Assembly (NCBI RefSeq): GCF_002234675.1
Contig: NC_019867.2
Coordinates: 30,347,747-30,411,746 of the forward strand
Direction of reading: 5' to 3'
DNA length: 64,000 nucleotides
Origin: Oryzias latipes
Lineage: Eukaryota; Chordata; Actinopteri; Beloniformes; Adrianichthyidae
In this document: piece by piece, positions 12,728 to 53,320 of the stretch
Layout of the letters: each line of letters begins with the position of its first letter
Numbering within the stretch: the stretch's first letter is position 1
The notes under the pieces: model-generated
What the model was told of the DNA's origin: nothing
The model's database searches: none
Seen by the model: only the letters and a program-made list of their open reading frames with translations
Program-made: the position numbers and the translations under genes

Positions 12728-12758
<31 letters not shown>

Positions 12759-12764: not shown

Positions 12765-12791
12765 ACACCAGGCTCATCTGAGGATGTTGTC

Positions 12792-14026: not shown

Positions 14027-14036
14027 TCTTTTATAT
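14027..14036 (-). promoter_or_regulatory. TATA box of the IL-17 family gene
   Basis: Minus-strand CATATAAAAG about 115-125 bp before the start codon, a normal distance for a short 5' UTR. An inducible TATA promoter fits a cytokine gene. Confidence 0.65.
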
Positions 14037-14452: not shown

Positions 14453-14459
14453 CACTGTT

Positions 14460-25000: not shown

Positions 25001-28000
25001 TAAGCGGCGCGTTGTCATGTTACCGTGACAACCACACCAAACAAGAATCTCCTGAAGGAGAAAACAGTTTGAAGCCAAGAAACCTGAAAAAGAAGAAATT
25101 CAGATTCTGGGGTTCCTCAGCGTTCACACAAACATGAGAGGAAACGCGATGGAAAACCCTCTGAGCATTTGAGCAGCTCTGGTTCTGTGGACTAAGTGGG
25201 CGTGGTCTTGGATCTGTGCTCTCCTTCAGGTTACACGGCCCTGATGCCCTGGCAGGGCGTCCCGCTAGAGGAGGCGCTGCCGACCTGCCAGCCCGGAGAC
25301 GCCTTCACGGTGGACGAGCTCCGCCTGGTGGAGAGGCAGACCGGCCCCCCGGACTACTTGACGGAGGCCGAGCTCATCACGCTCATGGAGAAGCACGGCA
25401 TCGGTACCGACACCCGCCTCGCTGAAACGGGCCGGGCCTCAGAGCTCTGCGGAGCAGAGTCGTGACGCCCGAGTTCTTCCCAGCGCACTCACATGGGCTG
25501 TCCTTGGTATTGCAGGGACGGACGCCAGCATCCCCGTCCACATCAACAACGTCTGCCAGAGGAACTACGTTACCGTGGAGACGGGGCGCAGGCTCAAGCC
25601 CACCAACCTGGGTGTCGTCCTCGTGCACGGATATTACAAAATCGGTGAGCGCACGTCTGAGCTGTGACCTCCGCGCCGCCGCTGCATCAGTGGCCATGGC
25701 AACCGGCACAGGCGTCCTTCAGCACAGCTCATCCGCACTCATGCACCCCCCCCCCCCCCCCCCCCCCCCCCCACAGACGCAGAGCTGGTGCTGCCCACCA
25801 TCCGCTCCGCCGTGGAGAAGCAGCTCAGCCTCATCGCGCTAGGGAAGGCCAACTTCCAGCAGGTGCTGCAGCACACGCTGGACATCTTCAAGAGGAAGTT
25901 CCACTACTTTGTGGACTCCATCAGCAGTGAGTCCTGCGGAGGCCCCGCCCCCTTCTCCTCTTCCTCACTGATGGGGTGTTCTTCATTTCATTTTAGAGAA
26001 AATGTTCTCAGAATGCAAAAACAAAACCAATATTTTGAGTAAATTTCTTGAAGATGCAATTAGAAGCAGAAGAACCGGAGTGTTTGTTCTGATAGAACCA
26101 TGTGGTGTACGTAGACTCATTCCGGACAGTCTGGTTCTGATCGTTTGGACTAACAGAGGACTGGACTGATGACGGGCTGTTGCTCCTGCAGGCATGGACG
26201 AGCTGATGGAGGTCTCCTTCTCCCCCATCGCTGCCACGGGGAAGCCCCTGTCCCGCTGCGGGAAGTGCCACCGCTTCATGAAGTACATCCAGGTGAGCCG
26301 CGAGCTGCACATGCTCATGTGTCCATAGGGGGGCGCTCACAGGTCACGTGACCCGTCCATCCGATCAGAACCCTGTCATCTCTGTGGGTCATGAAACAGA
26401 ATTCTGGGATCAGGACTGTCCTCCTGGATTAGTTGAGCTGTGCCCTCGTTGTCCCTCCCTCTGCCCGCAGCAGATGTTTCAGAACCGGTCCGGTCTTTGG
26501 GTTTCTGTTAACTCTGACCCAGATCCCAGCTAACGTCTGAGCTCCTCCTGCAGGCAAAGCCCAGCCGGCTCCACTGCTCCCACTGCGACGAGACCTACAA
26601 CGTTCCCCAAAACGGCGCCATCAAGCTGTACAAGGAGCTGCGCTGCCCTCTGGACGACTTTGAGCTGGTTCTGTGGACCTCAGGGGCGCGGGGGAAGAGC
26701 TACCCCCTGTGCCCCTACTGCTTCAGCAACCCGCCATTCAGAGACATGAAAAAAGGTAATCTGATTACCTTCTTTAGTTTGTGGTTCTTCATTTAAGGTT
26801 CTTCTTACCTGAAGGGCTTATATCATGCTTTTTTAAGCTATATCCATATATATGATCATATAGGACCTTTGGCACACTAAAGAACCATTTCTTTAAAAAC
26901 GGCATATTCGTGGTTAAAAAAGCTCTAGGAACGCTTTGACAACAGATCAGACGATGATGAGAGGGACTTTAACAAACTCTAACTATTAAAGCTCAGAGTT
27001 TCATAGTTTTTTGTTCTTCATCCGTCCATCTCTTAGAGGTGGGTCCTCCTCCTCTTGACGGACACTCATGTACTTTTACCGCGTTGGAAAAGTCTTTTGT
27101 CAGAGGCAGAGCCAAAGGCTCAGCTCCCTCAGAAACCACAGGTTTCCATGGTAACGGGCCTTCAGCAGCAGCAGCCTGGCTGTTTTTACCGCGTATGCCG
27201 CTAAAGCACTTTCCACATGACCGTCTCACATTTACCTCTTGTTCTCACGGAGGGAGGGGGCTCGGTTTCCGTGACGATAGATGGGTTGTTGGTGGTAGGA
27301 GGTGTGCGTACCAGACGTTTCTGCACCGTGTTCTGAGCTCAGCAGAGCGTCGGGTCACCCAGCCTTCGGACCTGTGGACTGATGTGTGTGTGGGGGGGTC
27401 TTCCTTTGTTCTTTTAGGTATGGGCTGCAACGAGTGCACCCACCCGTCCTGCCAGCACTCCCTGAGCGCTCTGGGCATCGGTCAGTGTGTGGAGTGTGAG
27501 TCCGGAGTTCTGGTTCTGGACCCCACCTCTGGACCAAAGTGGAGGATGGCCTGCAACAGGTGCAACGTGCTCGTGCACCTCTTCGAGCACGCTCACAAGG
27601 TGCAGGTGAGGACGGTCTTCCTTAACCGTGTTGCTCATGAGCACACCGGGCAACACATTTGGACCCATGAACGATGGTTCTGAAACACGTGCAGAAGGCA
27701 GCGGCTCCTGAACCAGACTGACTGAAGGACGGGCTCAAAGGCAAAGGGGGACTGGAGGCTAAAAAAAAAAAGAAACCTTACGTCCACGTCAGCCTCGTAC
27801 GGGCCGGTCCGTGACGTTAAACCGGTCTAGGATCTAGATGACTGCAGAACCACATGATGCTGCTCAGAACTCCAGATTCTGAACCTCTTTTTTTTCTTTA
27901 AAGGAGTGGATTCTGTAAGATTAAAGCTTTTTAAACTTTCCCTCTCCATTCCTACCGGCTCATATTGATTTAAAAGTACCGGTACACGATTCTGCTGCAG

Positions 28001-29423
28001 CGACCCGCTCCGATCGTCTCTTGATCTGTTTTTAAACGTTCCAGGTGTTTTTTTGTTTACGATGATGCAGTTTTTAGCTAAAATCTAAATACCTGTGTCG
28101 TTTGCTAGGACCTAGTTTCTGCTGAGCAGCAGTAGTTCATTGGAAAGGTCCCGCCCCCCCTCCCTTCCCCTCCCTGTTGTTGAGAGCTTAGAGTAGGAAG
28201 CCGATTGCAGTTTGTACACAAAAACTACGAGCTTTATAAAACTGCGTTTTTTTTTGTCTGCTCCTGATACACAGCGATTTAAACAAAAGAAAAATGTAAA
28301 AAAAAAAAGCAGTTTTCACTTTAATTGTCTTAATTATGTCGTCCATCATCAGAAAAAAGCCACAGGAACGTGTTAAAAACACTAATTTCATTCTTTTCAC
28401 TCTTTTTATTCTTTTTTTTCCCATGTTGCTTCGATATTTATTTTGTGCAAATTAAAGGGCCTATATCATGCAATGACGATATCAAAATGCACTTTTGAGT
28501 TAGTTCCTCACTAAAAACAATCCTAAAGCGGTAATTTGATCCATTGATGCATTTCTAAAAACCTGCTCTCTGAGCGATGATCAGTTCCTCACATTGTGAC
28601 GTCACGAAGTGAAGAACCGCCCCTTTCAGGAAGAGTCTGAGCTGCCAGCTCCGTCCCCAGGCTAACACACACGCCGACTTTCTCAGTGGAGCTAGTGCTG
28701 ATCGACTAAACGCTTTTTATGTTTTAGAAAAAAAATACGCACTTCCATCTTTGCAAAAGTTCAGATGTTTGTTTGTTTTTGTGGTAGAAACGCTGCTGAG
28801 GCATGAAGAGAAAGGCGGAGCCTCAGAGGTCGAGTCGTCTTACTTCTGGGTTGGAAAATAGCTGCGAAAATAACAAATATTTCATTAAATAGGTATTCTT
28901 TTGTGTGTCAAAGGTTATGATACATGTTCATATTATCCTCTGAATAAAAGCGATATAGACCCTTTAAGCCCAGGACACTTCCCTGCTCTCTTCTTCTGCC
29001 AGCCCCAGCTGCGACACTCTGGGGGCCCCTCACCCCGTCTGCCATCCCTCATTTTCACCGACCTTCTCTTCTTCATGGCTAACATTCTTGCAGAGATGTG
29101 AAAATGTGGACCCTGAGGTTCTGATCCGGTTACCCTCACAGGTCTCTCAGGACAGCTGTGAGGTCTGCGACGCCTCGCTGGTCATGGTGGACTTCAACAA
29201 GGCCCGCACCCCCCTGCCGGAGGGGGACACGCAGCACACCGGCTGCGTCTTCTGCGACCCGCTCTTCCAGGACGCGGTGGAGCTCAAACACGCCTCCATG
29301 AGGCGCACGGCGCACCGAGGCGGGGGCGCCAGGCGAGGGGGCCGGGGGCGCGGACGCGGCCGGCGACCAAACCCTAAGAAGCCCAAAGACAAAATGGCTG
29401 CCCTGGCAGCATACTTTGTATGA
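16030..29423 (+). CDS. top3b: DNA topoisomerase III beta
   Basis: Eighteen coding exons, all GT-AG and in phase: 16030-16099, 17609-17740, 17844-17950, 19194-19268, 19349-19545, 19807-19963, 21321-21434, 21703-21793, 21934-22088, 22196-22301, 24034-24180, 25230-25403, 25516-25644, 25777-25926, 26192-26292, 26554-26755, 27418-27605, 29142-29423. Product 858 residues (human 862). The TOPRIM domain shows VAEKPS (residues 7-12) and DCDKEGEN (117-124, Mg-binding acidic triad). The catalytic tyrosine is Tyr336 in GYISYPRTE. The C-terminal third carries paired cysteines (CGKC/CSHC, CPLD/CPYC, CNEC/CVEC, CEVC/CVFC) and ends in an RGG-type stretch (about [17 protein letters not shown]) and AAYFV. Type IA enzyme that passes single DNA or RNA strands, acting with TDRD3 and FMRP. 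Intact in every visible key residue. Confidence 0.97.
16660..17415 (+). repeat. degenerate GTCTCATTGTT minisatellite in top3b intron 1
   Basis: About 750 bp made almost only of GTCTCATTGTT, GTCTTGTTGTC and similar words of 10-12 bases, so the plus strand is nearly free of A-rich text and dominated by T, C and G. It makes long stop-free frames rich in Leu, Val, Ser and Phe that are not genes. Confidence 0.9.
17976..19138. mobile_element. hAT element in top3b intron 3 with exact target duplication
   Basis: The ends are TAGGGTTGGGCGATG (left) and CGGCACAACCCTA (right). They are flanked by identical octamers GAGGGCAG at 17968-17975 and 19139-19146. The 1163-bp interior has CATCGGGATGGACGATGA repeats near both ends, a run of about 26 G at 18052, and no transposase frame. 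It accounts for almost the whole intron, which without it would be about 72 bp. Confidence 0.92.
20267..20733. mobile_element. repeat family R2, inverted-repeat element in top3b intron 6
   Basis: The left end CACTGACTGTATAAGAGAAC and the right end (complement CATTGACTGTATATGAGAGA) are inverted copies. The interior contains GGACTGAGTGGCTCCTCCCC and GCTGCTACTCAGTC. Other copies lie at 44.46 and 47.43 kb. Confidence 0.75.
22620..23245 (+). mobile_element. Tc1/mariner transposon remnant in top3b intron 10
   Basis: Text such as GACGGTTCTTGACCCAAATG, TCAGACGGCGTCTGCGAGAG, AGTGGAGGCGCCATCATGGT and GGCGGAGCTACTCAGTACTG follows the order of a common fish Tc1-like transposase gene from its DNA-binding part to its 3' end. 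It is full of deletions and stops. Confidence 0.75.
23283..23332. mobile_element. TTAA-flanked palindromic MITE end
   Basis: TTAACCCTTGTGCTATCTGG begins at 23281 with GGGGTCCAGATGACCCCACT following; one arm plus the start of the interior only. Confidence 0.75.
28000..28440 (+). repeat. repeat family R1, copy B (top3b intron 17)
   Basis: Contains CCGCTCCGATCGTCTC, GATGCAGTTTTTAGCTAAA, CTAGGACCTAGTTTCTGC and, near the end, GTCCATCATCAGAAAAAAGC with AACGTGTTAAAAAC, the same order as copies D and E. Confidence 0.75.
28452..28967. mobile_element. TTAA-bounded inverted-repeat MITE, directly beside R1 copy B
   Basis: Starts TTAAAGGGCCTATATCATG and ends GCGATATAGACCCTTTAA, inverted over about 16 bases with TTAA at both edges, 516 bp long. 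No coding capacity. A similar end (GGGCTTATATCATG) occurs in intron 16 at about 26814. Confidence 0.8.
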
Positions 29424-29533
29424 GGGGGGGGGCGGAGTCCAGCAAGACCAGAGGGACAGTGCATGATGGGACAGTAGGGGGGGGGGGGGGGGGGTAACCG
29501 CTGCTTACAGCTCAACCTGATGTTGTGAAGGAG

Positions 29534-29539
29534 AATAAA
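29534..29539 (+). terminator. top3b polyadenylation signal AATAAA
   Basis: AATAAA 111 bp after the top3b stop, followed by a GT-rich stretch. Confidence 0.75.
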
Positions 29540-31024
29540 AACTTAAAAACATCTGTTTCTGTGTTTGTTTAGCCCAGAGCAGCAGAGTTTCTCCCTCCTT
29601 TGATTTAACCAATAAAACACAAAATCAGACAAAAAGATGAACACAACAGCGCAGACACACGTATTTAAAACCCTAATAAAGTCTTATAAGTCTGTCTGTT
29701 CCCTGAAGGCACCAGGAGGATGAGGAGGAGCTTCTTGCTGCATTTTGGCCCTTAACCTAAAAACCTAACACCTGTATTCCTGGAGCCGCACACACACACA
29801 CACAACACACACACACACACACAAGACACTGCAGCGGTTTCTGAACAGAAAACCGCACTATTCTATGGAAAATCTGCAAAGCAACGTCACTTTATACAAT
29901 TGAAACATTTAGCAGCACATAAACACTTTTGTCACCTTAACACTGTTATATTATATTGGCATTTGTTGAAATGTCTTTTCATTCTAACATGAATCCTTTT
30001 ATAGACTTCCTGCTCTTAGGCCTGAACAGTCATGCAGAATATTTCACTCGACTGTATTGTGGAGGTGACAAAAAATGGAATTTGGGCATCAGGTAAACAA
30101 TAAAACAAGATCATGGAGGTCCAGACTTCTGCTAGTTTACTGTTTAATCCCCTTTTAAACACGGCTGTGGGGGTTCCTCCAGAATATTCTTTATTGGGGA
30201 GGGGAGGCATATAGGTCCACTAAAACATGAAACTGATTGGTGCAGCTGTGTGATGCTAAGCCCAAACTTTAAGAATCACCTCTCCAGTTCTAAGAAACAG
30301 TAGGAACCCTTGAACACAACCTGGTTTAGATCAGCGGTTTCAACACTTTTTTCTGAATCAAACTAATACAAAATTTATTTCCACTAAATTTTTCATTATA
30401 ATTTTGAGTCATTTGATGGAGTTACATTTTGAAAATGAAAAAGCATTTCTGTTAATCCATTTTAACTGTCAAATTAGACATTTCTAAATTAAGTTTGCTA
30501 CACATTTACCAGAGAACTTTTTGAAAATGAAATGTCAGATACCATTTTGATTTTAATTAAGTGACAGAATAAGCGGTGTTGAAGAAGAAAATGAAAAAGC
30601 ATTTTGTTGGATTGCAGCTTCATTTTGAAAATGAAAAAGCATTTCTGCTTTTGACTTTTATTTTTAATTATGCCACAGAATCGCTTCCATACAGTAAAGT
30701 CAAATGTAATGACTGGTGGACAAATAGGACCAGACTGCCCCCTATAGGTGGAGGTTAGAGTTGTATCGACATAAGATGACCTCTGATTTACATGCTTGAA
30801 AGTATTTTAGTAATCATTTATTAATGTTAAAATGTCACACACACACATACATAGGAAAACAAAATGTAATTATATATATATACATAATTAAGATTTATTT
30901 ATTTTTCATAGAATATGAAGATGACACAATTGTTTTCCACTCATAGTTAGTCGTTCGGTGAAGCCATTTACTATCAAAAAGTTCTCTTTAGTCTTTGTAA
31001 ATCATAAACTACCCAAATGCCCCT

Positions 31025-31430
31025 ATTCAAAAGTTTACATAACCCAATGACTTTGTTCTGAAAACATCCACACACAATCTGATCCAAAAGGGTTTGAATG
31101 GCAGCAACAGGTAACAATCCTCACCTGTGACTCGTTTACCTGTATGCATGTGTGCACAAAAGGTCGTGGAGTTTCAGTGCTGCACTGATATTTCTGGATC
31201 CTGAGTCGTGAGGAAAACTTAGAGCTGTCAAAGGATCTACGGGAAAAGGTAACCGAACTGAACAAAACAGGACAGGGATATAAGAGGATATCCAAGAAAC
31301 TGAGAATGCCGGAATAATACCAGATCAAAGACCATCGCCATAATCTATTCTAGATGTAATAAAAGTCTGTTTTGATATTTCAGAACTGGTTCTGGACAGA
31401 ATGGTCTCAATATGAGGCCATTCTGATAAA
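31025..31430 (+). mobile_element. Tc1-like transposon remnant
   Basis: Starts with TTCAAAAGTTTACATAACCC, like a Tc1 inverted-repeat end. AAAACTTAGAGCTGTCAAAG, GGGATATAAGAGGATATCCA and GAATGGTCTCAATATGAGGC then follow the order of a fish Tc1 transposase gene. Heavily degraded. Confidence 0.6.
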
Positions 31431-32371
31431 AGCTCCATGGGAGGCTCATCCGTTCATCTGGTTTTTTTGCATCATAAACCAGAAGAGGTCTGTCCAAACC
31501 TGGTTGTCACATGTTTGGAGCAGGAAACCGCTGGCGTGGAACAACAGCGTTCACTGCTGCTTCCACAGCTCAGACTGATGAGGATCAAGGCTCCGTCTTC
31601 CGTTTGGAGCTTCCAAAATCCGATCTTCCAGTTCCACATGAAGGTTTCTGACCAGCAGGTTCTGCACGAGTGAACGTCAGTCCTCAACAAACCAAAGCAG
31701 CAGTTTCTACAAACCTGGAGCTTTTTCTGATCAGACCCCCCCCCCCCCCCCCCCATTAATCCACTGTCCCCCCCATCCCAATCCAACAGAAAAACACACA
31801 TTTTAGTCAGATTTTATTCCAGCAAACAGAAATTCTTCCAGCATCAAACTCTGACTGGAGTGTCTGTCCTGCAGCAGATGAAGTCTGTATTTGGTGAACG
31901 TCACTGTTCTGCAGCAGGTTGATCAATTTATCCAAACGATCATGGAGAAGTGACCAGAAGTCTCAGGTTCTAGTCTGATTTTCACGTAAAGATATTCAAT
32001 GTTAGGACTTTTTCCCCGTTTATTTATTTGCATTTTCTAGGTTTTAAATTCATTCAATGGTTCTGAAATGTAGAATGCATTTGAGTTTTTATTTTAGGTT
32101 CATATCATACAAAAAATAATAATTAATTTTTATCTAAAATGTAATAAATAGTCAATGGGGTAAAAAGTACATCTGCTAACAGGAGGGTTTGCCTTCGAAA
32201 AACAAAGCATTTTTAAAGAAAAACATTTTTAAAAGACTTTGCTTTTCGATCAGCTGTTTTCCTTTAACTGGTCACAAGAGGAAAGAAATTACTTTACAAA
32301 CAGAACCGATGTTTAAAAAACACTAATTAAAAAACAAAACTTTACAAAACCCAGATTTAATAGTATTTTTA

Positions 32372-32376
32372 TTATA

Positions 32377-32462
<86 letters not shown>
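32372..32462. repeat. (AT)n microsatellite
   Basis: About 90 bp of nearly pure alternating AT. Confidence 0.95.
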
Positions 32463-32465
<3 letters not shown>

Positions 32466-33269
32466 ATCTAATAACTCCATTCAGTTCATTCATAATTTTG
32501 AAACATTTTCTGTTTTGGACCTTATTCTCAATTTGTTTTCTTCTTTTCTTTTCTTTTTTTAAATGTAATCTTTTTTATTAAGAACTTTCAGATTGTCATG
32601 GAAATGAGCAATAGTTCCTGATCAATTTATTCCTCACAGAAAGTAAAAGTAAGAACTTAATCCAAACTAATATTGCAATCATCTAATAAAACCTTTAATT
32701 AAATGAATCCCTGTAGTTTTTATTTTTTTACATTTGACTATAATTTATAAAGTTATTTCTATTTGTTTCTTTTTTGTCTTGTTTAATTTCCAGTGAGGCA
32801 GACATCACCAATTAATTTGTTTTTAATGTTTTAATTTTTGTTCATTCGTTGTTCTACTTGTTTTATGGTTTGATTTGTACCCACACATAAAAGCAAAAAC
32901 ACAAACTAAATAAAATAAAACTTAAACACAAAACGACTTTAAACAAATAAAACCAAACTTGGCAAATTTCACTTTGACAGAAAAGTTAAATAGCTTTTAG
33001 AAGACGAAGAGTCAAGATACAATTTTAATAAAATGTAGAGAAATCACTAAACTATACGAGAAACGTAATTTAAAGGTTTTTTTTAATTGGGGACATTTAT
33101 TTTGAAAATAAAAATTAAGATAAATATCAACTAAACTCAGTAGTTTAAGTTTCACTTTTTGTGGTTTGATTTTTTAAAAATGAGGAGGAGCACAAGTGTC
33201 TTCCATAGGGATAGTAGCTTTGCATTATTATATATTTTAAATACATTAAATTAAATTTCGTTCTCTTCA

Positions 33270-34680
33270 TGCGTCTCCATCCTGTTCATGGCACGCGCGT
33301 GCCCCTCCGCCGTGAGCACGCACGTGACAGAAGCTCCTGAGCTCCAGAACTGGAGCCAGAACCAGAACAATCTCCAGGTGGTCCGGACTGAAACCTGCCG
33401 AAAGCTGGTTTGCATCACGTTGTCTGGTTGGGGCTGCCCAAGTGCGAGCGCGCACCTCCCGCACGCACGTGTCCGGCTGAGCTCACGCATTGGTTCCAAG
33501 GTCAGAGAGCCACGCGCACGTGAGCTCTTAAAACTGCTTCAAATTTAGAGAATTAAGCAGAGAGCTCAGAACCAGAACAGGGCCTACAACCCATCTGGTG
33601 AGTCACGTGCGCGGATCCGCGTGCATCATTCCCACAGAGGAACTCCTTTCATCTGAGCTTCGCCTCCATATACGGGCATGGAGCTTCCTGGGGGCCCCAC
33701 ACTGGGAGCAAGCTGGAGAGCAGGCAGAACCAACATGAGCGCGCGTGCCTTACATAGCATCTGCAGGACGTCACCCCCACCCCCACCCCCAAAAAAGAGT
33801 GAAGCGCGCGTGCTACTAACTCCCTGAAGAACTCAGGCGAAAACACGACCGTTTCTGGATTTCCCGCTTCACTCGTGACCCGCTCGGTCCAGATTCTGAA
33901 GCGGTTCGGTTCCTCCCTCTGCTCGGTTCGGTGCGCGCGCGCACGGCAGCGCCAGATTTGTGAATGAAAAACAGGATTTGTGTTCATTGTTAAATTAAAG
34001 TCCACCGTGACGTCACTGTGGTTTGCGACCAATCCGGGAGAGCGAGAGAGGGGCTGCAGCCAATGAGAGCGGAGGCGGCCGCGGCCAGCAGCCAATCAGA
34101 GGCCGGCATGCAGATGCGGCTGCGCTCCAGAAGCTGAACGTCAACCAGCAAAGATGGAGTCCAGAACCGCGAGGCCGCAAAATACCGACCCACCGGAGGA
34201 CCTTCTAAAGAGGGGGGGCACCGTGAGTCTTTCCCGGGGACGAGAACTGGACCGGATCGTGCGTGCACGCGCACACTGCGGAGCGGGAGGCTTTCTCGCT
34301 GTGGGACGCGCTTGCGCTTCTCCGCGCGTGCCTCCCTCGGACCGGCCCTGCAGGTACCAACAGAACCTCCTGGCCCGAAAGCGCGCGCACACGTGGATGT
34401 CGCGGTTCTGATTGGCCGCAGACATTCAGACCATGCTGAGCTGCGGAGCGCACGCGCGTGTTTTTACCAGAGTGGAAGCGCGTGCGTGTGCGTTGAGAAA
34501 ACCGTGATTGACAGGTGGGTGAAAAACGCACGCGCCCGTCCGCCGGGCGGCAGGAGCAACGGCGGACTCTGGCTCCGGACTGCAGGAGGTCCGGGTGTTC
34601 TGCAGGCCCGTTCGGGTCAGAGGTGGAGGGTTCAGATCCGCTGGGAGGCCTCATCATGCTGAACATCCACAGAACCAAGG
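33270..34680 (+). promoter_or_regulatory. CpG-rich block with three spaced CCAAT boxes; probable pri-microRNA promoter
   Basis: An island of CG-rich sequence (many GCGCGC and CACGCGCGTG words) stands between AT-rich flanks. CCAAT boxes lie at 34029-34033, 34060-34064 and 34092-34096, that is 31 and 32 bp apart, followed by a CG-rich stretch without a TATA box. No coding exon is found here. It is 0.6-1.3 kb upstream of the first microRNA hairpin on the same strand, so a promoter for the microRNA transcript is the simplest reading. Confidence 0.5.
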
Positions 34681-35025
34681 GGTCGGGTTCTGGGTTCTGG
34701 TTTGTCCTTCCTGTTCCAGAACAGGACCAGCTGGGTTCAGGTGAACGTCTCAGTGGAATCCACAGCCTTCCTCTAGTGGGGGGCTTCAGGGGCTTCAGGG
34801 CTGCTGGGACAGGAATAGAAGGTATCAGATGAGGCAGCATGAAGCTAAAGAGGGAGGGGGCTCTCCCTGGACCATAGACCACCACTACCCCCCCACTTCC
34901 TACATCCTCTCTTCCTACACTTTTGCTTCCTTTACTTCCACCCTGCTGGTGTCCCCCACCCATTTTGACTTCCTCCACCCTCACTTCCTGTACCCTCATC
35001 TCCTTCCTGTCCTGTCCTGCAGGAA

Positions 35026-35056
<31 letters not shown>

Positions 35057-35267
35057 GTTGACTGGAACAGATCTGAACAGACATGACTGTAATGCTCACA
35101 TTGTAAAGTGGTGTGTGCACCCCCCCCCCCAGCCTGCATCTATGACATGTCTGTGTCTTCAGGCCCGGGTCGGGCAGCGTGACCCCCCACCCCGCAGCAG
35201 CCGTAAGCCTGTTTGTCTGTTTCACGGCTGCTGTTGTGAGGCGATGTGTTAATCGTGCAGCAGTGTG

Positions 35268-35348
35268 TTGTTGTCTGGAGCCCTTTTTCTGTTGTGCTAC
35301 TGTGAAATCAGGTGAGCAGTGCAATTTTAAAAGGGCATCGGCCAACAG
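35268..35348 (+). ncRNA. microRNA hairpin, miR-130 family
   Basis: The 3' arm 35317-35338 begins CAGUGCAAU and ends AAAAGGGCAU, identical to miR-130a except base 10 (U for G). The seed AGUGCAA is intact. The 5' arm (about 35281-35303) reads CUGUUGUGCUACUG, the usual miR-130 passenger strand, with the loop UGAAAUCAGGUGAG, and the outer stem pairs GCCC with GGGC. It is a member of the vertebrate miR-130/301/454 group. Which named paralogue (130a, b or c) cannot be decided here. Confidence 0.9.
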
Positions 35349-35538
35349 CGCCCCCCCTCCTCCTCCCCCCGCCCACCCCTTCCTGCCCCACACATGCTTG
35401 TGGCTGTCGGTGCTGCAGTTTGGACTCTGTTGTTGTTGTTGTTGTGCAGTTTCTCTGGTCGACCCGGAGCTGCTGCAGGCGGGACGCTGCTGTTGTAGAG
35501 GAGCAGACGGACAAACAAACAAACAAACAAACATGAGC

Positions 35539-35658
35539 ACGGCGTCTGCTCTGACTGCACGGCGTCTGCTCTGACTGCACGGCGTCTGCTCTGACTGCAC
35601 GGCGTCTGCTCTGACTGCACGGCGTCTGCTCTGACTGCACGGCGTCTGCTCTGACTGC
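35539..35658 (+). repeat. six exact 20-bp tandem units
   Basis: The unit ACGGCGTCTGCTCTGACTGC is repeated six times with no mismatch, preceded by (AAAC)n at about 35510-35532. It starts 190 bp downstream of the miR-130-like hairpin. Being perfect, it is either recent or easily variable in copy number. Confidence 0.95.
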
Positions 35659-35659
35659 T

Positions 35660-36366
35660 TAAAATAACTGCAGGAAAACGGCGTTCCTTCAATACCTGAC
35701 CTAATCCAGATGTTCACACTAATTAATGTATCACTGTTTAATTCATGTATTTCTTTAATTCTTATTTAAAAAATCAGAAATTTAAAACCGTTTTTTTCAC
35801 ACAAATGTTTCCTTTTTCTTAATGCAGGAAATCTCAATAATAAATCACGAGACAATAGAGGATCATTGAATTAATGAAACAAAGTAACAATAGTCATGAT
35901 TTTCAGGAACAACATGGAGGCAAATCAGGTTTCGCTTTAAGAAAATAAAACTCTAAATTTGAAAAAGGAATTAGGAAAATAAAAGTGGTTTTAATTTTGG
36001 GAGTGCATATTTTAAACTTGAAGGAAATACTTAAAATTTGGACAAAAAAGTATTGAAAATTTAAAAACAAAGTACATTTGAAACTTAAAAATAAACCTAA
36101 ACTGTTACCATTTGAAAAATAATATTTGTTAATGAAAGTTTTCAACTTTAGTTTTTTGCGTTTCTCTCAGTCTTTGCTTCAGTCGGTTTCCAATTTCAGT
36201 TCAGACTTCCTGTTTTCTGCTGATCCTAATTTGACGCGTGGGCGGGGCTTTGAGCCTCTTGGCCACCGGAAACGCCGTGTGTGTCATTCCTCCTCTGCTG
36301 TACCCAGCTTTGGGAGAGCGTCATCACCGCCGTGCGTCTCTGGGTTTTCATTCACCATCAGCTGTT
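35660..36366. other. AT-rich, nothing recognised
   Basis: No gene, repeat end or hairpin recognised. Confidence 0.5.
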
Positions 36367-37463
36367 GCTACGGTGGCCCTGAAGTGCCAATAACAACTCC
36401 CTCCAAGCAGAGTCATATTAAAGATCACAACCAATATTAAAGAAAGTAATAACAATTTATAAAAATAAAAAAGCAGAATTAGATTTTAGAAATCAAAACA
36501 TAATTCAAAATAAAAAACATTTCCAGAAAACCAAATGTAAAAAGAAACACAATAAGAAACGGTGCGTAGTACTCGCTGGACATCGCTGATCGGATGATGA
36601 CATTTGATTTTTGTTCATCAAACCGACCTAAACCGTTATAGAACGGTTGCAGAGTGAAAAATATCTAATCTGATCGATATTGGAAAATACCATCTGGATT
36701 GAGACACAGTAGGTTTATGTGACTATAAGGTAAAACCGACCAATCACAGCGGATGACACACATGATGTCATTAAAGCGGATCAGTCCATCATTCCAGTCC
36801 AATGTGTGGACAGACTTTAAAGTCATGTGACCATCTGGAATGTTCTGAGAATGTTCCCTTTGAAAACACAACAGTGGTGAACTTTAGAAACTATCATGTG
36901 AATGGATTTGACATTCATTCTAGTTTACTTGTTTGTTTGGACACAGATTTCATTAACTTGATGATCTGGAAGAAATCCAAGAATCTGGAAAACTGTTCAG
37001 TAGCAGGAATTTCTGTCTGAGTTTCACTGCTGGAAGTTTGGATCAAGAGGATCTGGATCCACTTTAGGGCAGAGAATCGGATGAAATCCAATACTGAATA
37101 TAAATTCAGATATGAATCCGTGTTTTAGTGAGTTGTTACGGCCGTAACCTTTAGCGTCTGCATGCGTTCTAATAACAATGAAATCCAAATGACCTTCAGT
37201 TGAAATGATGCACAAACGTCATCATCCAATCAGTGATGTCCCATAGAACCAACTTGTTCAGATTTCTGTTTCTTTTTTAACATTTTGTTTTTTTAGCATT
37301 TCAATTCCATTTTTGATTGTAGTTTTTTTTTTACATTTGTTTTTGGTTTCCAGGATTTTCTAAAAAGTAACTCTATTTTTTTATGATTTGTCGTTGTGAT
37401 CCTTAATATGTTTGTGCATTGAGTGGTTTGTTGGTGTGATTGGCACTTCAGGGCCACCGTAGC
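36367..37463. mobile_element. DNA transposon-like element with 25-bp perfect terminal inverted repeats
   Basis: 36367-36391 (GCTACGGTGGCCCTGAAGTG…) is the exact reverse complement of 37439-37463. The interior (1.05 kb) has no transposase frame. Target duplication not clear, so the superfamily is unassigned. Confidence 0.7.
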
Positions 37464-39075
37464 CTCCTGATTTGACCCGACAGAGCACGTCAAAGATTTA
37501 TCAAAGGTTTTGATGTACGGGAATACACAAACATTCCGACTGAAATGATGACGTCACTCCAGAAAAATGTTACATTAATAAAAAAAACCGTGTATCAAAT
37601 GAAGAGGCATTTTAACGTCCCCCGACGTTAAAATGCAGAACCCCGCTGCTGCGCACGTGCGTGCACAGGACACAGGCTGTGGGGGGAGCGTGCACGTGAC
37701 CGTGCACATGCAGCTTCCTGTTCCCCAGACTTTTTTCAGAGCAGATCAAGCCTGAAGTTAGTTTTTTTTTCTTCAGTGTAAGGTGGGGGGGCTCTGTGAG
37801 GAATGTGAGGGGAGGGGTGTCAGGGGCCCCAAGCCTGCGTGCACACGTCTGCAGAACCAGCTGGGGCACGTGCGCGCGGTTCCTTACAGACAGACTGCTG
37901 CTAATTCAGGTTCTCCATCTAAACAATAAAAAACCCAAATGTAAAAATAGAAAAGCTGCCAAATATCACATTTAAACTGTTTCATAAATGTTTGCTTTGA
38001 TTTCAAATATTTAATGTTTTCAACATTACAATATTATATATTGTGTTGATTTAATCTGTTTTGGGGCCTTATTTTAATACTTTTGTTTAAATAATTCTAC
38101 ATATTTTATTGTTTAATCAGGTTGGAAATATTTAGTTCAGACAAAAAAAATGTTCTTTGAATTTTAATCTTAATGTTTTTGTTTTTCATCTGCACCTTTA
38201 ATATTAGTGAAGCAGAAAAATATGTTTTTCAATTTGCAGCAAATCCATTTTAACATTTTTAATAAATAACAATATAAAAATAAATTAAATGGAATCTATT
38301 TGTTTTATTTTAATAGGAGTTTAGTGCAGAAATGGACAAAAACGAACAATAAAACTGAAAACCTGATGCAACAAATCCAAAAAAATTAAAAACAAATAAG
38401 TCTGTTATAAAAAGAGAAAAGAAAAAACTATTAGGCCTTTAATGATGTGAAGAATAAATTCTACAAATATTAGAAATGAAAAAGATTTCACCCAAATGTA
38501 ACTAAGAAGTAAAACCTTTATAAAATGCTGCAGCAAATGTTTTTTACAGCAAGTAGAATAAAGTAAAAGTTTTACTAACAATAAATTCAGTAAAAATCTT
38601 AAATATGACGGCTATTTTTTCAAAAATCCAGATTTAATACTGAGGTCATTGAATAATAATTAAAAGCATGTGAGTTTATAATCCACGTTATTTTATTCAG
38701 ACAAAATGATCCTGGCTGCATTTTTTCCCCGGTTTTACAGAAAAACATGTTTTTATGTTTTAACTGAGGAATTTCAGGAGTTTAAATAAATAATCATTTC
38801 TTTAAAAGACACTAAAATCCTTATTTAATTATAAATTCCATGTTTTTACCATAAACGAAATTAAAGAAGGAAAACGTTTGATTTTAAAAATCTACAATTC
38901 TGAGGATAAAGTATTTTTGAATTTAAAGTTGACGTTTTTGTCCTTGTGGACGTGAATCTTCTCAAACTGAAGAAGTCCTAACAGACCTGGAGGCAGAGGA
39001 GGGTCATCGGCGTTCCGGTGGACCTCCCCCCACCAGGACCCCCCAGGAGCAGGACTGTCCTCCCCAGAGCCTTGC
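37464..39075. other. between transposon and miR-454; CG-rich patch then AT-rich DNA
   Basis: A CG-rich patch with several CACGTG-type words (37640-37880: GCGCACGTGCGTGCAC, GTGCACGTGACC, GGGCACGTGCGCGCGG) stands out, then about 1 kb of AT-rich sequence without features. The patch could be regulatory; no gene seen. Confidence 0.4.
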
Positions 39076-39077
39076 AG

Positions 39078-39158
39078 ATGGGACCCTATCAATGTTGCCT
39101 CTGCTCTCAGCAGCATTTCTCAGTAGTGCAATATTGCTTATAGGGTGTCGTCTGTGGG
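39078..39158 (+). ncRNA. mir454: microRNA hairpin, miR-454
   Basis: The 3' arm 39124-39146 begins UAGUGCAAUAUUGCUUAU and ends AGGGU, identical over all 23 bases to the human miR-454 I remember. The 5' arm (39083-39105) reads ACCCUAUCAAUGUUGCCUCU, the passenger strand, and the outer stem pairs CAGAU with GUCUG. Seed shared with miR-130 and miR-301. It lies 260 bp upstream of the next hairpin, as the mir-301/454 member does in other vertebrate clusters. Confidence 0.94.
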
Positions 39159-39337
39159 GGACTACCTCGTGCCAACTGCCCCCTTCACAGGAAGTGATGT
39201 CATCTCCGCAGCGGGGAGATGTGATGGCGCCGGCCTGGTCTCCCGGTTGTCATGTCCGACTGGGTTTGGTGGGGGCAAACGCTCATCTGTGAGGTGAAGA
39301 AGAGTCTTCGTCCGTGAGGAAGAGGAGCAGACGCTCT

Positions 39338-39415
39338 CTGACTGACACTCTTTCCCTGTTGCACTACTGTGGGGGTGCAGGAGCAGTGCAACCATGAAAG
39401 GGCATCAGTCGACGG
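39338..39415 (+). ncRNA. mir130b: microRNA hairpin, miR-130b
   Basis: The 5' arm 39347-39368 (ACUCUUUCCCUGUUGCACUA…) equals the human miR-130b passenger strand I remember. The 3' arm 39384-39405 has CAGUGCAA then CC in place of UG, then AUGAAAGGGCAU. The outer stem pairs GACUGA with UCAGUC. Seed intact, bases 9-10 changed. Confidence 0.92.
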
Positions 39416-39419
39416 GCCG

Positions 39420-40742
39420 AGCCCCAGCGTGTGCGTGTAGTGAAGGGTCTGATCCACGATCCTTATTGTCCTTCAGCCTGTGATGCTGTCAGATCCAGAA
39501 CCAGACCAGCGGTGTCAGAAGTGGACTAAGGTTTCATTTCTTTGCTGCTTCTGGTTTCTCTGCTTCAGATCCTTCAGGTTTGAGGCTCTTCTGCTGTTGG
39601 AACTTCCTCCGGTCTGAGGAACATCCCGCTCTTCTGGATCCAGCTCTTCCAGCTGGACTTAGAACAATGAAAATGCTAGTTTAGGTCAGAGTCACTGAAA
39701 GACCAGAAGCACTACCGTCTGACCTCGGCTCCTCTGGTTCCTGTCGGTGAGCATGTCCGTCATGCTGCCATCGTGTTTTCTGTGTGGCTAAAAATTAAAT
39801 AAAGATGTGAAACAGAACCTGTTCTCTCTCCTGATTGGCTCTCAGCCACAGCTGCTCAAAGGGTCAGAGTCAAACCGTGGAACAGTGAAGGAACCGTGGG
39901 GGTGGGGGGTATTTTGATTGGCGGGTGGGCAGAACTCAATTACTATTCTTACCATACTTTCTCTTTCTTAATGGGCTGTTCATGGAACTCAGGTCCGTCC
40001 CAATCCAGGCTTTGGTTTCTCAGTCCTGAATCCACAGGGTTGCATCAGACCCGTTCATGGTTCTGATCCGCAGTAGAACTCCAACGGGTCCTAAGGTGAC
40101 GAGGCTTCTGAGGTTCTGCTCTGATCCGATCCTCAGTACAGATTTCTAAATCAAGTTGAGACAGAAGAAAATGGCAAAAACAGGCCTTTTAGAAATAAAA
40201 AGTTACTACCCCAATTTGCCTATAAATAGGCAAAAAAAAAAAGAAAAAGAAAATATCAGCCAATGGTCTTACCAAGAATTCTTATTTAAAAAAAAAGAAT
40301 TCCAGTCATTAGCATATTTTCTCTAAGATTATTTTAAAAAACTGTCTGGATAAGATTATTTTGACAAATAAAAAGGCAATTCTCCTGGAAACGAAGGACA
40401 TTTTACTTTCTAAAGATTCACTTTTTGCAGTGAAACAATGAACCCGTGGATGGGACACGAACACAAAGTGCAGAGCAGACACTGCACACTTGGCCATCGC
40501 ATGGAAACTACAACAGACCTGTTGGATTATCCAGATCCAACTCTCACATCAATATCTCAAAAGTCAAATATCCGATAGATGGCAGCATCCTCAAAAAAGT
40601 CATTAAAAAATCATTCCTCATATTAAATTAAATATAAGGAACATCAAAATCTTAGAAGCGGGCGTGGCAGAGCATGCAAGTACAGTTACGTTTATTTAAA
40701 ATTCAGCCTTTTCTGTGCAACAAGCATGAGGGTCTTGGAACT
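39420..40742. other. downstream of microRNA cluster, no gene seen
   Basis: Ordinary intergenic sequence with A-runs near 40230 and 40290. The AATAAA at about 39797 (plus strand, AAATTAAATAAAGATG) could end the primary microRNA transcript. Confidence 0.35.
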
Positions 40743-40750
40743 ATTTAACC

Positions 40751-41350
40751 CAGGGGTCTCCAACTCCGGAGCCTCTTTTATTCACTTAATTGTGGCTCTT
40801 TAACTTTAAAGAAAAAAAGCAATTATTGCTATTTATGTTCAGATTTTTTAAACGGAGGTGATCTAATATCAGCAAAAGTACTTATTTTATTATTTTTTTT
40901 ACCACTGATGACACTGTATCAAGAGGTCCTGAATGCTTCTCTACTGTTTCATTAACTAGCCATAATGATATGTTTATAAAGTTTATAAATATATTTACAT
41001 GTATAGTTTTTTTAAACCCTTGCGGAGGCACGTTAACGTTGGGAGTGGGGTCATCTGGACCCCACAAGATAGCACAAGGGATATTATAGCATTCTACCTC
41101 AATGTTGTCACATTTATATTGAACAGTCATGATGAGCAAATGTCATGTTTGAAATGACTTTCCTGCGTTTTAAATTAAATAAATCTGCTGAAGGGCAAAA
41201 TTAATTGCGAAAGGAACTCACCCGAACTGCTGTCTATGCTAAAATAAAATAAATAAATAAAAATGTGATCAAATAAAGGCATTAACTGCTACAAAAGGTA
41301 AATAGTGTTTTGCTCGGTTAGAAACTGGCCTCAAAGGTTACTGACCCCTG
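40751..41350. mobile_element. 600-bp hAT MITE with target duplication and nested palindrome fragment
   Basis: Left end CAGGGGTCTCCAACT, right end GGTTACTGACCCCTG. Flanks ATTTAACC (40743-40750) and ATTTGACC (41351-41358) match in 7 of 8 bases. Inside, 41018-41080 is an end of the TTAA-type palindrome family (GTGGGGTCATCTGGACCCCA). Confidence 0.8.
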
Positions 41351-41869
41351 ATTTGACCCCAAGGTGCTGCCCCCTGCTGGATGTTCAGTGAACCTGAAAC
41401 GAGGGCTGCTGCCCTTAGTGGCCTGCAAACAGGTCAGAGCTCTGTGGCAGTTCTGCTCTAATCTCTGTGGCAGTTCTGCTCCAATCCTGTTCATTTCTAA
41501 ATCTGCCGTTCGACAAACTCCAAAATGATACAGTCTTTGGTAATGGAGGATGTAGTGATTTATCAGCAAACATAAATATGTGACGTTTGGTTTTCTGAAT
41601 GCACACTTCCACCTGGTGCTGCAGCTTTTTGACCCCCGATTGCTTTTCTGTGTGAGCCACACAGAGGCTGATTACAGACCAACATCCCTACATTTTTTTT
41701 TACTGTTTTTTAGGATCTTGAAAGTAACAAATTGTCCACAAACAGTGATGTGATGAAGTGAAGAAAAAGCCAGTAGTAGCAGACGAAAGCCCTTAGAGTT
41801 TCCTCAAGGATGAGGAGTGGACCGACCATTAAAGATGGAAGACGGCCCTCATCTTTAATTTTAATCCAT

Positions 41870-42195
41870 CTTCACAGTGAGGAGAAGACCGATTATCGCT
41901 CCAAAAAACATGCTGAACAACACCAGAGCTATCCGGCTGTACAGTTCTGATCCAGATATCAGCTCAGACAAGGAAAACAAAGACGTTCATGGATCTGTCG
42001 TTCTGCACGGGGACGCATCGGAATGGAGCGGAGCAGGGAGCTCGAGGCCCGTTGACTGTAGCGCCCACGTCTCCGATATTTTCCAACAGCCTTTTTGTCG
42101 TCTGCTCTTCATTCACAGTGAGTTGAATAAAGAAATACTTAGAAATGCAATCCATCACAAGCCTAAGCAGTGAAGGTGAACCTGTCTGCTTTTAT
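41870..42195 (+). repeat. repeat family R1, copy C, with the best preserved coding-like frame
   Basis: An open frame of 98 codons (41877-42173) includes AIRLYSSDPDISSDKENKDV. The same segment recurs in copies A and E. Ends in AGAAATGCAATCCATCA like copy D. Not a gene with any recognised domain. Confidence 0.65.
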
Positions 42196-42199
42196 TCTA

Positions 42200-43430
42200 A
42201 AAGACTTGGCTTATGGTTCATTTAGAAAAGCAAATGTTCAAGAATAAGGATTTTCTGATTTCTTCCAAGAATTATTATCAGGCAGTTTACCTCTTTCTTT
42301 TTTCAGATTCAAAGTTGTGAAAAAAGCCACAAGTCTGTCTGTTCTGTTGGAGGTCATTTAACCCGCATTGATGATGCAGCAATGAAGTCTTTCTGAAAGA
42401 CACAGAACTCAGGATCACTTTCAAATATTCATCAATGACTAACTAATTTGCTACGAGTCGTTTAGTCAATTGTTTGTGTCATTAGCCCCAACCGAATTAT
42501 TTGGCACAGACGTTTTGTTAACAGGTGAGTTACAGGTTAACAGGTAGTTCACTCACAGTTTAAATTGGATTTTGACAGGAACTTAATTTCATGAGTTAGA
42601 CACTTATTGTTCATTAGTCACATAAAGGGCTGTGTACAAGTTAAACACTGAGAAAGTGACAAACAGGATTTATAACACTTACTGTTTTATATGGTGTGAT
42701 GGACCAGGCAAACGCAGGACAAAAGTGCTGATATTTAGTCCAAAAATAAATCCTTTTAACGCCAAATCAATTCAAAAACACAAAACTGAACATACATCAC
42801 TGATTTGAAGGACCTATCAGCAAAAGATTAAGTCACTAACTGGTTACAGATGGGTTATTCCTTTATTGGTTGAATGCTATAAAGCAGTTTCACTTTCTTA
42901 ATTATAGCATCTTCTGCCATGTTTTGCCGCTTAACTCCAATTTTTCAGATACTTTAACCTTTCAACTATTCAAATGTTCAGCTCTTTCAGCTTTTTCCAG
43001 CTATGACTTTTTGTCCTTCAAATCCTTGAACCTTTCCAGATATTCCAGATATTCCAGGATTTTTGTCTCCGTTGAAATACATGGGGAATCCTTGGTGCAG
43101 AAGCTCGCTGGTTCGATACCCGGCTCTGGCATTTTTAAAAAAAAATGTTTTTGTTATTGTGCTGTTTTCACTTTATTTATAGTCAACTTTTATCTTTTAT
43201 TTCTTTGTTTTTTTGTGTACCAATTATTACCCTTGAAGTTTCATTTTTATTCAACCATACATGTCTTCTGGATATACAGCTCTTTCTAGTTGTTGTTTTT
43301 AATAATAAATGGTTAGTAAAACATTTGTTCGGTGACTTATTAAAGTGTAGGTTTATTTTTTCTGAGGGATAAACCAAAAGTCTCCCATACAGGAGCAGTT
43401 AGAGGGGTTTAAAAACTTTCATGAAAGTCA
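42200..43430. other. intergenic, AT-rich
   Basis: No gene. At 43096-43134 a short stretch with GGTTCGATACCCGGC resembles the T-arm of a tRNA, but no complete cloverleaf forms. Confidence 0.45.
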
Positions 43431-43434: not shown

Positions 43435-43620
43435 AAGCGGAAGTGGGCGTGGTTTTCGATGACGCGGAGAAGTAGAGGTCCAATAGGCGCGCGAGCGCGG
43501 CGCAGCTCTGTAAACGCTGTGGAAGAGCACATCCGGCTGGGTCTGTGCGCGAGCGTTTCCTTTGTCCGCGAAGGGCGTGTTCGCTGAACGTCTGCCCCGC
43601 GCGCAGCTCCTGTCCCAGGT
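43435..43620 (+). promoter_or_regulatory. ppm1f CpG-rich promoter and probable non-coding first exon
   Basis: CG-rich sequence with CCAAT at 43480-43484, ending in the strong donor CCCAG/GTAAGAAAAC at 43618/43619. The first coding exon of ppm1f is preceded by an acceptor (GCTGATTCAG/ACC at 47820/47821) 16 bp before its ATG, so an upstream non-coding exon is required; this is the only CpG-rich block with a donor in between. Joining them is an inference. Confidence 0.5.
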
Positions 43621-44461
43621 AAGAAAACTCACCCTTTTCCCGCCACCTGCCAACGTATGCGCGCGCGCGCTGGCCTTACTAAAGTCTGGAAGTTCCGTGC
43701 TCAGCTCGAGCGCAGGGGTGCGTGACTTTAGACCCGAGGGGGGAGTTCTGTGAGGTTCGGCTGCTAACGGAACCTGAACGAAGCAGTTACGATGAAGTTG
43801 GTGGTTTTAGAAAAGTTTTTTCTTAGAAGTCTCGCGCGCTCACGTTTGGTGGTGGCTTGTAGCAGACGCACGAGAGCGCGCGAGGCAGAGTGTTGTGATG
43901 GGAGACATTTGTGTGCAGAACCGCGTCAGTCCGCGAGGCTGTGATACTAATCTAAAGTAATCCAGATGTTCTTCACGGGAGAAGAAGCAGCTTCCAGCAT
44001 GTCCAGAACCGAGATGGTTCCGCAGAACCAGTCAGAATCGAACCCAGTGAGATGAGGAACTCAACAGGTGGTAACTCATCATTATCTCGACATATTTCAA
44101 GTTTTAAGAAACGTTTTTTAAAAAAAACATTTTAAACTACACAGGATAAAGGAATAAATAGAAATAGAGCCCAACTGAACTGAGGTGAAGCTGAACTCAC
44201 GTTGTATTTATACTGAATGGTTGAGAGCCTCAGCAGAACACCTGGGGAAGTCATTCTCCACCTGCACCTGTTCTGTTGGTGGGCCGGGTCCAGACCCTCT
44301 GGGTGGATTTCCAGCAACCAAACTACCTCCACCTAAAACGACTACATTCCTGTTCCAGGTGTACGCGTTTTTTCATAAACCTTACTCCTACGTCCCATAA
44401 TTCCTTGTGTGTTAGCAGTGGGCCATTTTCTCCCCCAACATCAGTTGCAGGCGTTGACCCT

Positions 44462-47836: not shown

Positions 47837-49101
47837 ATGGAGGACAAGGCCCGCCTCTTCCTGCAAAAGTTTGTGCAGGAGTTCCCAGCGGCTCTGGAGA
47901 AGGACCAACCGCTGCCCGCCAGCCCCCAGAGCCGCCGGGTGTCTGAGGAGGAGCTGCCGGGGGAGAGCCTGGAGCTGGGGCTGAGGCTGCTTTCATCCAG
48001 GTACGGTGTGGGGGGGTCTGCTTTTGCTGCTGCACCCAGAATCTTCAGGCAGGCTGTTTTATTAAAGTCCCACTCCGATCATCTTTTCATCCATTTCCAA
48101 AGCGTTCCCGGTGGTCTTCTCATGATGATGATGCAGTTTTTAGCCTAAATCACACAAACCTGTCTAGGACCTAGTTTCTGCAGAGCGGCAGGAGTTCATT
48201 AAAACTTCACCTCTGAGTTGTGGCCGGGACTGTAGACGTGAAGTGAGCCTGGCGCCCCTCCCCTCTTCGTTACTGAGAGCTCTCTGTTTACAGATACTCC
48301 TGCTAGCTTACAGCCCTTACAGCAATGTTGGAGCTATCCGGCTGTACAGTTCTGGGCCGGATTCCAGCTCAGACGTGGAAAACCAAGACGTGAACTCACC
48401 TGCCTCTTTATTATTTACACCTGTTCAACTGCTGGTTAATGCAAACTTCTAACCAGCCAATCACACGGCAGCAACTCAATGCCTTCATGTAGACATGGTC
48501 CAGATGATCTGCTGCAGTTTAGAGCATCAGAATGAGGGAGAAAGGTGACTGAAGTGACTTTGAACATGGTTGTTGGTTCCAGACAAGCTGGTCTGAGGAT
48601 TTCAGAAACTGCTGATCTACTGGGATTTTCACCCACAACCATCTCTAGAGTTTACAGAGAATGGTCAAAAAAGAGAAAATATCCAGAGAGCAGCAGTTCT
48701 GTGGTCAGAAACAGTGGCGGTTCTACCCTGAATTACTCCCCGGGCGAGACCCTCCTCTGGCGCCCCCCCCCCCCCCCAATAGAGTCACTTTGTCCATTTA
48801 TTGTAACTGAAAATACAGTTAGGAAATATTTAATCAAACACAAATAATCTGAAATAAATATTATAAACTACAAATCACACTAATAACACACTAGAATAAA
48901 TGTAACTGCAGCACTAAGAACAGAAAACACTAACTAAAACCTAACCTTTGTGGCCTTCCTGATGCAAACTTGTCAATAACGTCATCATATGAAATCTGCT
49001 CCCCCCCTAATGATTGATACTAACAACAGCAGGTTAGTGAGTTGCTCCTGAGACATTGGTGATCTCAGGTATGCCTTGATCAACTGGAGTTTTGAAAAGC
49101 T

Positions 49102-49157
<56 letters not shown>

Positions 49158-52100: not shown

Positions 52101-53320
52101 TCAATCAGCTGTTTGGCGTGGAGGTACGTCAGGAGCCGCAGGTTCCTCCGCCATGTTTCTGTGAGGAGCCCAACCGCCACACCTGTCTGTCTGTCTCCAA
52201 CCTGGACCAGGACGGTGTGCAGCGCGCCTTCTACGCTGTGTTTGACGGCCACGGCGGGGTGGACGCCGCCACCTTTGCTGCCACTCACCTGCATGTCAAC
52301 CTTAGCCGGCAGGGGGCGCTACAGAGCAGCCCGGGCCCGGCTCTGAAAGCTGCCTTCAAACGCACAGACGACATGTTCAGGAGCAAAGCCCAGAGAGAGG
52401 TATGAGTGGGCGGTTCAGGGGCGGAGAACATGGGCTGTGGGCGGAGCTCCCTCTGGAAGTGCATGTCTTTGTGTTATCAGCGCCTACGGAGCGGCAGTAC
52501 CGGCGTGGTGGTTCTGATCCATGACCAGGAGCTGACTGTGGCCTGGCTCGGAGACTCTCAGGCCCTGTTGGTCAGGGAGGGGCAGGAGGTGGTGCTGATG
52601 GAGCCCCACAAACCAGAGAGGGAGGTAAGTAAGGACGGCTGCAGGCTGGCTTAGTTCTGGAGCAGGAAGGGCCCGAGACCCGGTCCAGGACTGCAGACCT
52701 TGTGAGCCCAGCAGCTGGAACTCCTGCATGTGACGTGTCCCCCCCCCCCAGGATGAGAAGCAGAGGATCGAGGACCTGGGTGGATGCGTCACCTACATGG
52801 GCTGCTGGCGCGTAAACGGCACCTACGCAGTCTCCAGAGCCATAGGTGGGTGGTGCCAATAGGGTCAAAGGGCATCTGTGGGTCGGTTCCGCCTCATCGG
52901 TTGGGTTTCCGGGGTTTTCTTCCCCCTCCAGGTGACTTTGACCAGAAGCCCTACGTGTCTTCAGACGCCGACTCCTCCACGGTGCGGCTGCAGGGCAACG
53001 AGGACTACGTGCTGCTGGCCTGCGACGGCTTTTTTGATGCAGTCCAACCTTCGGAGGTCCCCCAGCTGGTGATGGGGGCCCTGCAGGGGCTGCCCCTCCC
53101 CGAGGAGGCATCTGAAGCTCAGCCTGACGGTGGGACGGGACAGACCGTTGCTCAGAAGCTGGTCGCTCACGCCAAAGAGGCCGGATCGAGCGACAACATC
53201 ACCGTCCTGCTGGTGTTCCTGCGTCCACTGCCGGATCTGGGCTGCGCCACCGGGGGGCGCTGCGCCTCGCCGCAGTCTTCTGCAGAGGCAGCACCCTTAC
53301 GCGGGGAGGCAGAGACCTGA
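47837..53320 (+). CDS. ppm1f: protein phosphatase, Mg2+/Mn2+ dependent 1F
   Basis: Seven coding exons, GT-AG and in phase: 47837-48000, 51271-51395, 51930-52123, 52211-52399, 52481-52624, 52752-52845, 52932-53320; 432 residues (human 454). PP2C catalytic motifs are all present: RRKMED (residues 141-146), AVFDGHGG (170-177), AWLGDSQ (245-251), ACDGFFD (333-339) and SSDNITV (389-395), which supply the metal-binding aspartates. The N-terminal 96 residues are acidic, as in POPX2, with [10 protein letters not shown] and EPDNGEEEV before the catalytic domain. The human enzyme removes phosphate from PAK and CaM kinase II. The 87-bp intron 52124-52210 is a multiple of three without a stop, so its retention would keep the frame; removing it restores the length seen in human (FGLSDPVNRAYF against [12 protein letters not shown]). 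Intron 1 holds a three-level transposon nest. Confidence 0.95.
48712..50182. mobile_element. hAT element, inner layer of the nest, exact 8-bp target duplication
   Basis: Ends CAGTGGCGGTTCTA and TAAAACCGCTACTG. Flanked by identical octamers GTCAGAAA at 48704-48711 and 50183-50190, so the surrounding Tc1 frame rejoins exactly when it is removed. The interior holds CCCGGGCGAGACC / CGGGCGATCGCTCG near the ends and a CAG tract. Confidence 0.93.
49104..49154 (+). repeat. (CAG)17 trinucleotide tract
   Basis: Seventeen uninterrupted CAG units inside the inner hAT element, intron 1 of ppm1f. Confidence 0.95.

Follow-up and report, generated by a model that had tools for sequence, protein, structure and literature searches.

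The closest described human system is the MIR301B-MIR130B pair, in a 22q11 block that also holds SDF2L1, TOP3B and PPM1F; ppm1f also belongs to the vertebrate mir-130b/301b neighbourhood. No mir-454 or mir-130c is known at this place in the human genome. The two human genes, on chromosome 22, stand 245 bp apart (PMC6659797) and are reported to be carried on one 2,460-nt polyadenylated transcript (PMC10667839).

Alongside mir130b and mir301b, teleosts and the coelacanth are reported to have mir130c-2 and mir454b, and the teleost cluster lies near sdf2l1 and top3b (PMC9245644). According to the same source, platyfish and medaka lack mir130a, mir301a and mir301b, and seadragons, pipefishes and a seahorse are without the cluster. 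On zebrafish chromosome 5, two pairs have been described, miR-130b/miR-454b-2 and miR-301b/miR-130c-2 (PMC2427041). On chicken chromosome 15, a miR-130c-like sequence (there called miR-130a) precedes miR-130b by 8.8 kb in the same orientation (PMC6586908), and mir-130c-2 may therefore occur outside teleosts and the coelacanth as well. At hatching, miR-130c exceeded all other miRNAs of sole in abundance, a result that does not distinguish between the two mir-130c loci (PMC4097167); the main text of PMC6408482 does not name the miR-130/301/454 family.

Three hairpins of one seed family

A 64-kb stretch of the medaka genome (C9:30347747-30411746; hereafter the window) was run in full through Rfam cmscan, with cut-offs of 40.6 bits for mir-130 (RF00258), 60 bits for mir-454 (RF00746) and 56 bits for mir-301 (RF02061). 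Three matches reached gathering level, all full length and on the plus strand (Table 1), and they are the same three hairpins that an earlier reading of the sequence had assigned to one seed family. The AGUGCAA seed of the miR-130/301/454 family lies in the 3p arm of each. The guide CAGTGCAA starts at 35317 in mir-130c-2 and at 39384 in mir-130b, and the guide TAGTGCAA at 39124 in mir-454b, in agreement with the predicted starts.

Table 1. Positions in the window of the miRNA hairpins, neighbouring genes and associated elements.
Feature	Position	Strand	Details	Evidence
sdf2l1 exons	9913-12119	+	3 rows, 65-72% identity	tblastn, human SDF2L1; Pfam MIR
top3b exons	16030-29423	+	18 rows spanning residues 1-862, 52.7-94.4% identity	tblastn, human TOP3B
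Candidate promoter	33200-34600	+	CpG-rich, CCAAT, CRE, CACGTG	inferred from sequence
mir-130c-2 hairpin	35269-35347	+	5p ~35280-35301, 3p guide ~35317-35338	RF00258 52.5 bits, E 5.8e-8; fold
Transposon-like element	36367-37463		between mir-130c-2 and mir-454b	29-nt terminal inverted repeats, 97% complementary
mir-454b hairpin	39061-39163	+	5p ~39083-39104, 3p guide ~39124-39146	RF00746 71.3 bits, E 3e-14
mir-130b hairpin	39336-39415	+	5p ~39347-39368, 3p guide ~39384-39405	RF00258 44.7 bits, E 7.2e-6
ppm1f coding exons	47838-53230	+	start codon at 47838 and end inferred	tblastn, human PPM1F; Pfam PP2C; frame

By itself, AGTGCAA is not enriched in the window (8 occurrences against 12.9 expected), and the evidence is therefore carried by the hairpin and arm sequences. 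At the other AGTGCAA sites (6905, 20469 and 45020 on the plus strand, 8903 on the minus strand), no miRNA-like fold was seen by eye. Searches of 1-33000, 33000-43000 and 43000-64000 gave no further mir-130, mir-301 or mir-454 match at E <=5 beyond the hairpins, together with weak matches to unrelated families.

Folded at the intervals of the original prediction, the sense strands of mir-130c-2, mir-454b and mir-130b reach -31.1, -27.0 and -31.8 kcal/mol (z of -3.48, -2.55 and -2.73), with 1, 2 and 3 of 200 shuffles, respectively, folding equally well or better. The Rfam hairpin of mir-454b is longer than the 39078-39158 first proposed for it. Similarly, the 260 bp by which miR-454 was said to precede miR-130b is correct as a start-to-start distance but not as a gap, which amounts to 179 nt between the predicted ends. 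The antisense strands fold too, at -21.7, -18.2 and -36.2 kcal/mol (z of -2.79, -1.86 and -5.52), so that folding alone cannot set the strand, which is set by the Rfam scores. The CNNC and basal UG motifs are features of Drosha processing. A CNNC motif lies 16-18 nt beyond the 3p end of all three hairpins, although the match after mir-130c-2 means little, as the stretch there is very C-rich; a basal UG at -14 is present in only one of the three, which counts against the cluster reading.

The mir-130b hairpin is nearly self-mirroring, being more stable in antisense than in sense and carrying AGUGCAA in its antisense 3p arm as well, with a candidate minus-strand start near 39366 (UAGUGCAACAGG). 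AGUGCAA occurs on both strands in four of the six family hairpins found in the genome, and mir-130b alone among them folds better in antisense. Were this hairpin transcribed both ways, miRNAs with the same seed would arise from either strand, but we attach very little weight to the idea that mir-130b is such a strand-indifferent gene.

Naming of the members

The 5p arm of mir-130c-2 differs from the published snakehead miR-130c-5p at one of 22 positions (PMC4783888), and its guide differs from the published miR-130c at position 10 (PMC4211694). As this guide is also one base away from miR-130a, the assignment to 130c rests on the arm and the locus. The guide of mir-454b is identical to the snakehead miR-454b sequence over the 22 bases published (PMC4783888). 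For mir-130b, the 5p arm is identical over 22 of 22 bases to human miR-130b-5p, while the guide differs from the human guide at two of 22 positions. It differs from the chicken guide at positions 9, 10 and 21 (PMC6586908). The three hairpins are therefore best called mir-130c-2, mir-454b and mir-130b.

Despite their full-length matches to RF00258, the two mir-130 hairpins have guides that depart, at position 10 in mir-130c-2 and at positions 9-10 in mir-130b, from every family guide compared. Searched in two spellings each, neither window guide was found in the main texts of the papers covered. While these departures could signal that one or more of the hairpins is a decaying, unprocessed copy, the changes fall outside the seed, and seeds, arms and pairing have all been kept; decay is consequently very unlikely.

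Gene neighbourhood

The order on the plus strand is sdf2l1, top3b, the miRNA cluster and ppm1f. The cluster thus lies, as first proposed, between top3b and ppm1f in the block of human mir-301b/130b, with sdf2l1 in the window too. The gene names rest on human protein queries, and Pfam backs sdf2l1 and ppm1f but not top3b. An N-terminal tblastn row of the PPM1F query falls at 47858-48001. Three of ten ORFs searched against Pfam gave a match (two PP2C, one transposase), with none in the three ORFs within top3b and the two overlapping sdf2l1; in addition, the intervals 1-15002, 29450-39450 and 39501-64000 were scanned against Pfam in all six frames. No convincing match to YPEL, MAPK1 or UBE2L3 was found in the window. 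When single exons were compared with the genome, that of top3b had a single match, that of sdf2l1 one other, 68% identical, on C14, and that of ppm1f three weaker ones on C14 and a fourth, also weaker, on C13.

Sdf2l1 and top3b are therefore close by, as at the vertebrate mir-130b/301b locus. However, whereas PMC9245644 places the cluster between sdf2l1 and top3b, here it occupies 35269-39415, beyond top3b, so that top3b separates it from sdf2l1, and ppm1f follows it.

Several other elements were observed in these intervals. Between sdf2l1 and top3b, the minus strand carries an exon for an Interleukin-17 domain (12894-13106; Pfam IL17, E 6.1e-12). At 14348-14446, a match to Rfam mir-5892 reaches 51.3 bits against a cut-off of 82, equally on both strands, and is presumably an inverted repeat. 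A long degenerate TGTCTCATTGT-like repeat with strong AT skew fills 16836-17394, between two top3b exons. A Sleeping Beauty HTH match below cut-off at 31222-31311 and a Tc3-type transposase HTH match at 50210-50416 are DNA transposon fragments.

Absence of mir-301b and its relation to mir-454b

No match to RF02061 above 56 bits was found in the window. The three sub-threshold mir-301 matches in the window all fall on the mir-130 hairpins (45.4 and 26.2 bits on the plus strand, 22.7 on the minus strand), and the intervals 1-33000 and 43000-64000 hold none at E <=5.

The original prediction had explained the arrangement by placing miR-454 in the position of miR-301b. Indeed, mir-454b stands immediately upstream of mir-130b, just as mir-301b does in the human pair (PMC6659797). 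Yet mir454b and mir301b are reported jointly in teleosts and the coelacanth (PMC9245644), and zebrafish chromosome 5 has both 454b-2 and 301b (PMC2427041). Since the two coexist elsewhere, the loss of mir-301b is a separate event, and mir-454b is an old neighbour rather than a substitute for miR-301b. Replacement of mir-301b by mir-454 at this locus is accordingly highly improbable.

A perfect 20-bp tandem repeat of 6.1 copies at 35537-35658 contains CTGCTCTGAC, as does the 5p arm of mir-301, and stands about where C12 carries its mir-301. It was considered as a remnant of mir-301b by collapsing it to one unit and comparing it, with the C12 and C14 mir-301 hairpins as queries, against 3000 background draws. 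Under strict scoring, the background equalled or exceeded the repeat in 57 (C12) and 41 (C14) of 3000 draws for the 5p half and in 118 and 135 for the whole hairpin; under loose scoring, the corresponding counts were 576 and 206 for the 5p half and 2100 and 1832 for the whole hairpin. The similarity is weak and was chosen after the fact, and the repeat was rejected as a remnant.

Family members elsewhere in the genome

Among the best candidates scored, mir-130 matches the genome twice on C9 and once on C12, and mir-301 exceeds its cut-off on C14 (94.2 bits) and C12 (89 bits); mir-454 is found on C9 only, among the matches listed. Across 14 control genomes, mir-130 and mir-454 had no match and mir-301 one sub-threshold match. 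The C12 mir-130 carries the published miR-130c guide and is followed about 210 nt on by mir-301, on one strand. As in the window, mir-130 comes first and the members share a strand; unlike the window cluster, the C12 pair keeps mir-301 and has no mir-454 among the matches listed. It is probably a duplicate of the window cluster from the teleost genome duplication.

The second mir-301 hairpin, at C14:12977736-12977819, lies ahead of a ska2-like exon, and the first base of its guide would be U instead of C. The presence of this hairpin conflicts with the report that mir301a is missing in medaka (PMC9245644). In keeping with medaka, one of three astacin ORFs compared on C3 departs at 1 of 179 residues from PDB chain 3vtg_A, the medaka high choriolytic enzyme 1, and the other two depart from it more.

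Candidate promoter and primary transcript

Ahead of the hairpins lies a CpG-rich region that is a candidate promoter (Table 1). Its CCAAT boxes at 34029, 34060 and 34092 are the only such trio within 100 nt on either strand of the window, and a CRE lies at 34008, one of six in the window against an expectation of 0.68. A GC content of 0.55 with a CpG observed/expected ratio of 0.9 is reached in four of 127 500-nt segments, two of which make up 33501-34500, one 43501-44000 and one within sdf2l1; the CpG-rich sequence at 43.4-44.0 kb is the better candidate for ppm1f. Just after the CCAAT trio, by eye, a short ATG-started open stretch runs to a GTGAGT donor-like site (34154-34222) and may be the first exon of the primary transcript.

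Of the 18 CACGTG sites in the window (8.5 expected), five lie in the candidate promoter (33321, 33466, 33517, 33604 and 34390), and four sites are 5.7-6.0 kb ahead of mir-130b. In man, BHLHE40/41 repress through a CACGTG E-box located between -7850 and -5351, upstream of MIR130B (PMC6659797). As it was looked for after the fact, the parallel is only suggestive.

By the most probable mechanism, RNA polymerase II would start in the CpG-rich CCAAT region at about 34.1 kb and produce a plus-strand primary transcript carrying all three hairpins. Drosha and Dicer would release these, and the 3p strands, all with the seed AGUGCAA, would load Argonaute and repress common targets. We think it probable that one single transcript serves the whole cluster, as the three hairpins share a strand and follow a single CpG-rich CCAAT region. 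The 3.7 kb between mir-130c-2 and the other two hairpins counts against a single cluster, however, and about 1.1 kb of this gap is occupied by the transposon-like element, the middle of which (query ~245-722) is repeated on many contigs, with no other full-length copy among the matches listed. This gap, the three additional CACGTG sites at 37654-37872 and the grouping of the zebrafish halves into two separate pairs by a 3-kb limit (PMC2427041) would suit two transcription units, one for mir-130c-2 alone and one for mir-454b with mir-130b; given the common strand and the one upstream region, this arrangement is possible but the less likely one.

Identity and significance of the cluster

Rfam matches above cut-off, the folds and the presence of sdf2l1, top3b and ppm1f in the window, taken together with the published cluster and its missing mir301b (PMC9245644), the pairs on zebrafish chromosome 5 (PMC2427041), the chicken chromosome 15 pair (PMC6586908), the C12 pair and the human joint transcript (PMC10667839), argue strongly that this is the teleost mir-130c-2/mir-454b/mir-130b cluster, orthologous to human mir-301b/130b and without mir-301b. 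Judged by sequence, its members are very probably working miRNA genes. The cluster is already known in fish, and the window has the members of the teleost cluster of PMC9245644 except mir301b; with the human locus it has mir-130b and the gene block in common (PMC6659797, PMC10667839).

The analysis gives this conserved miRNA cluster an exact position in medaka, records which member is absent there, and sets right the view of miR-454 as a stand-in for miR-301b. The order of genes at the locus, the E-boxes in the candidate promoter and the C14 mir-301 are small additions to a general picture that is unchanged.
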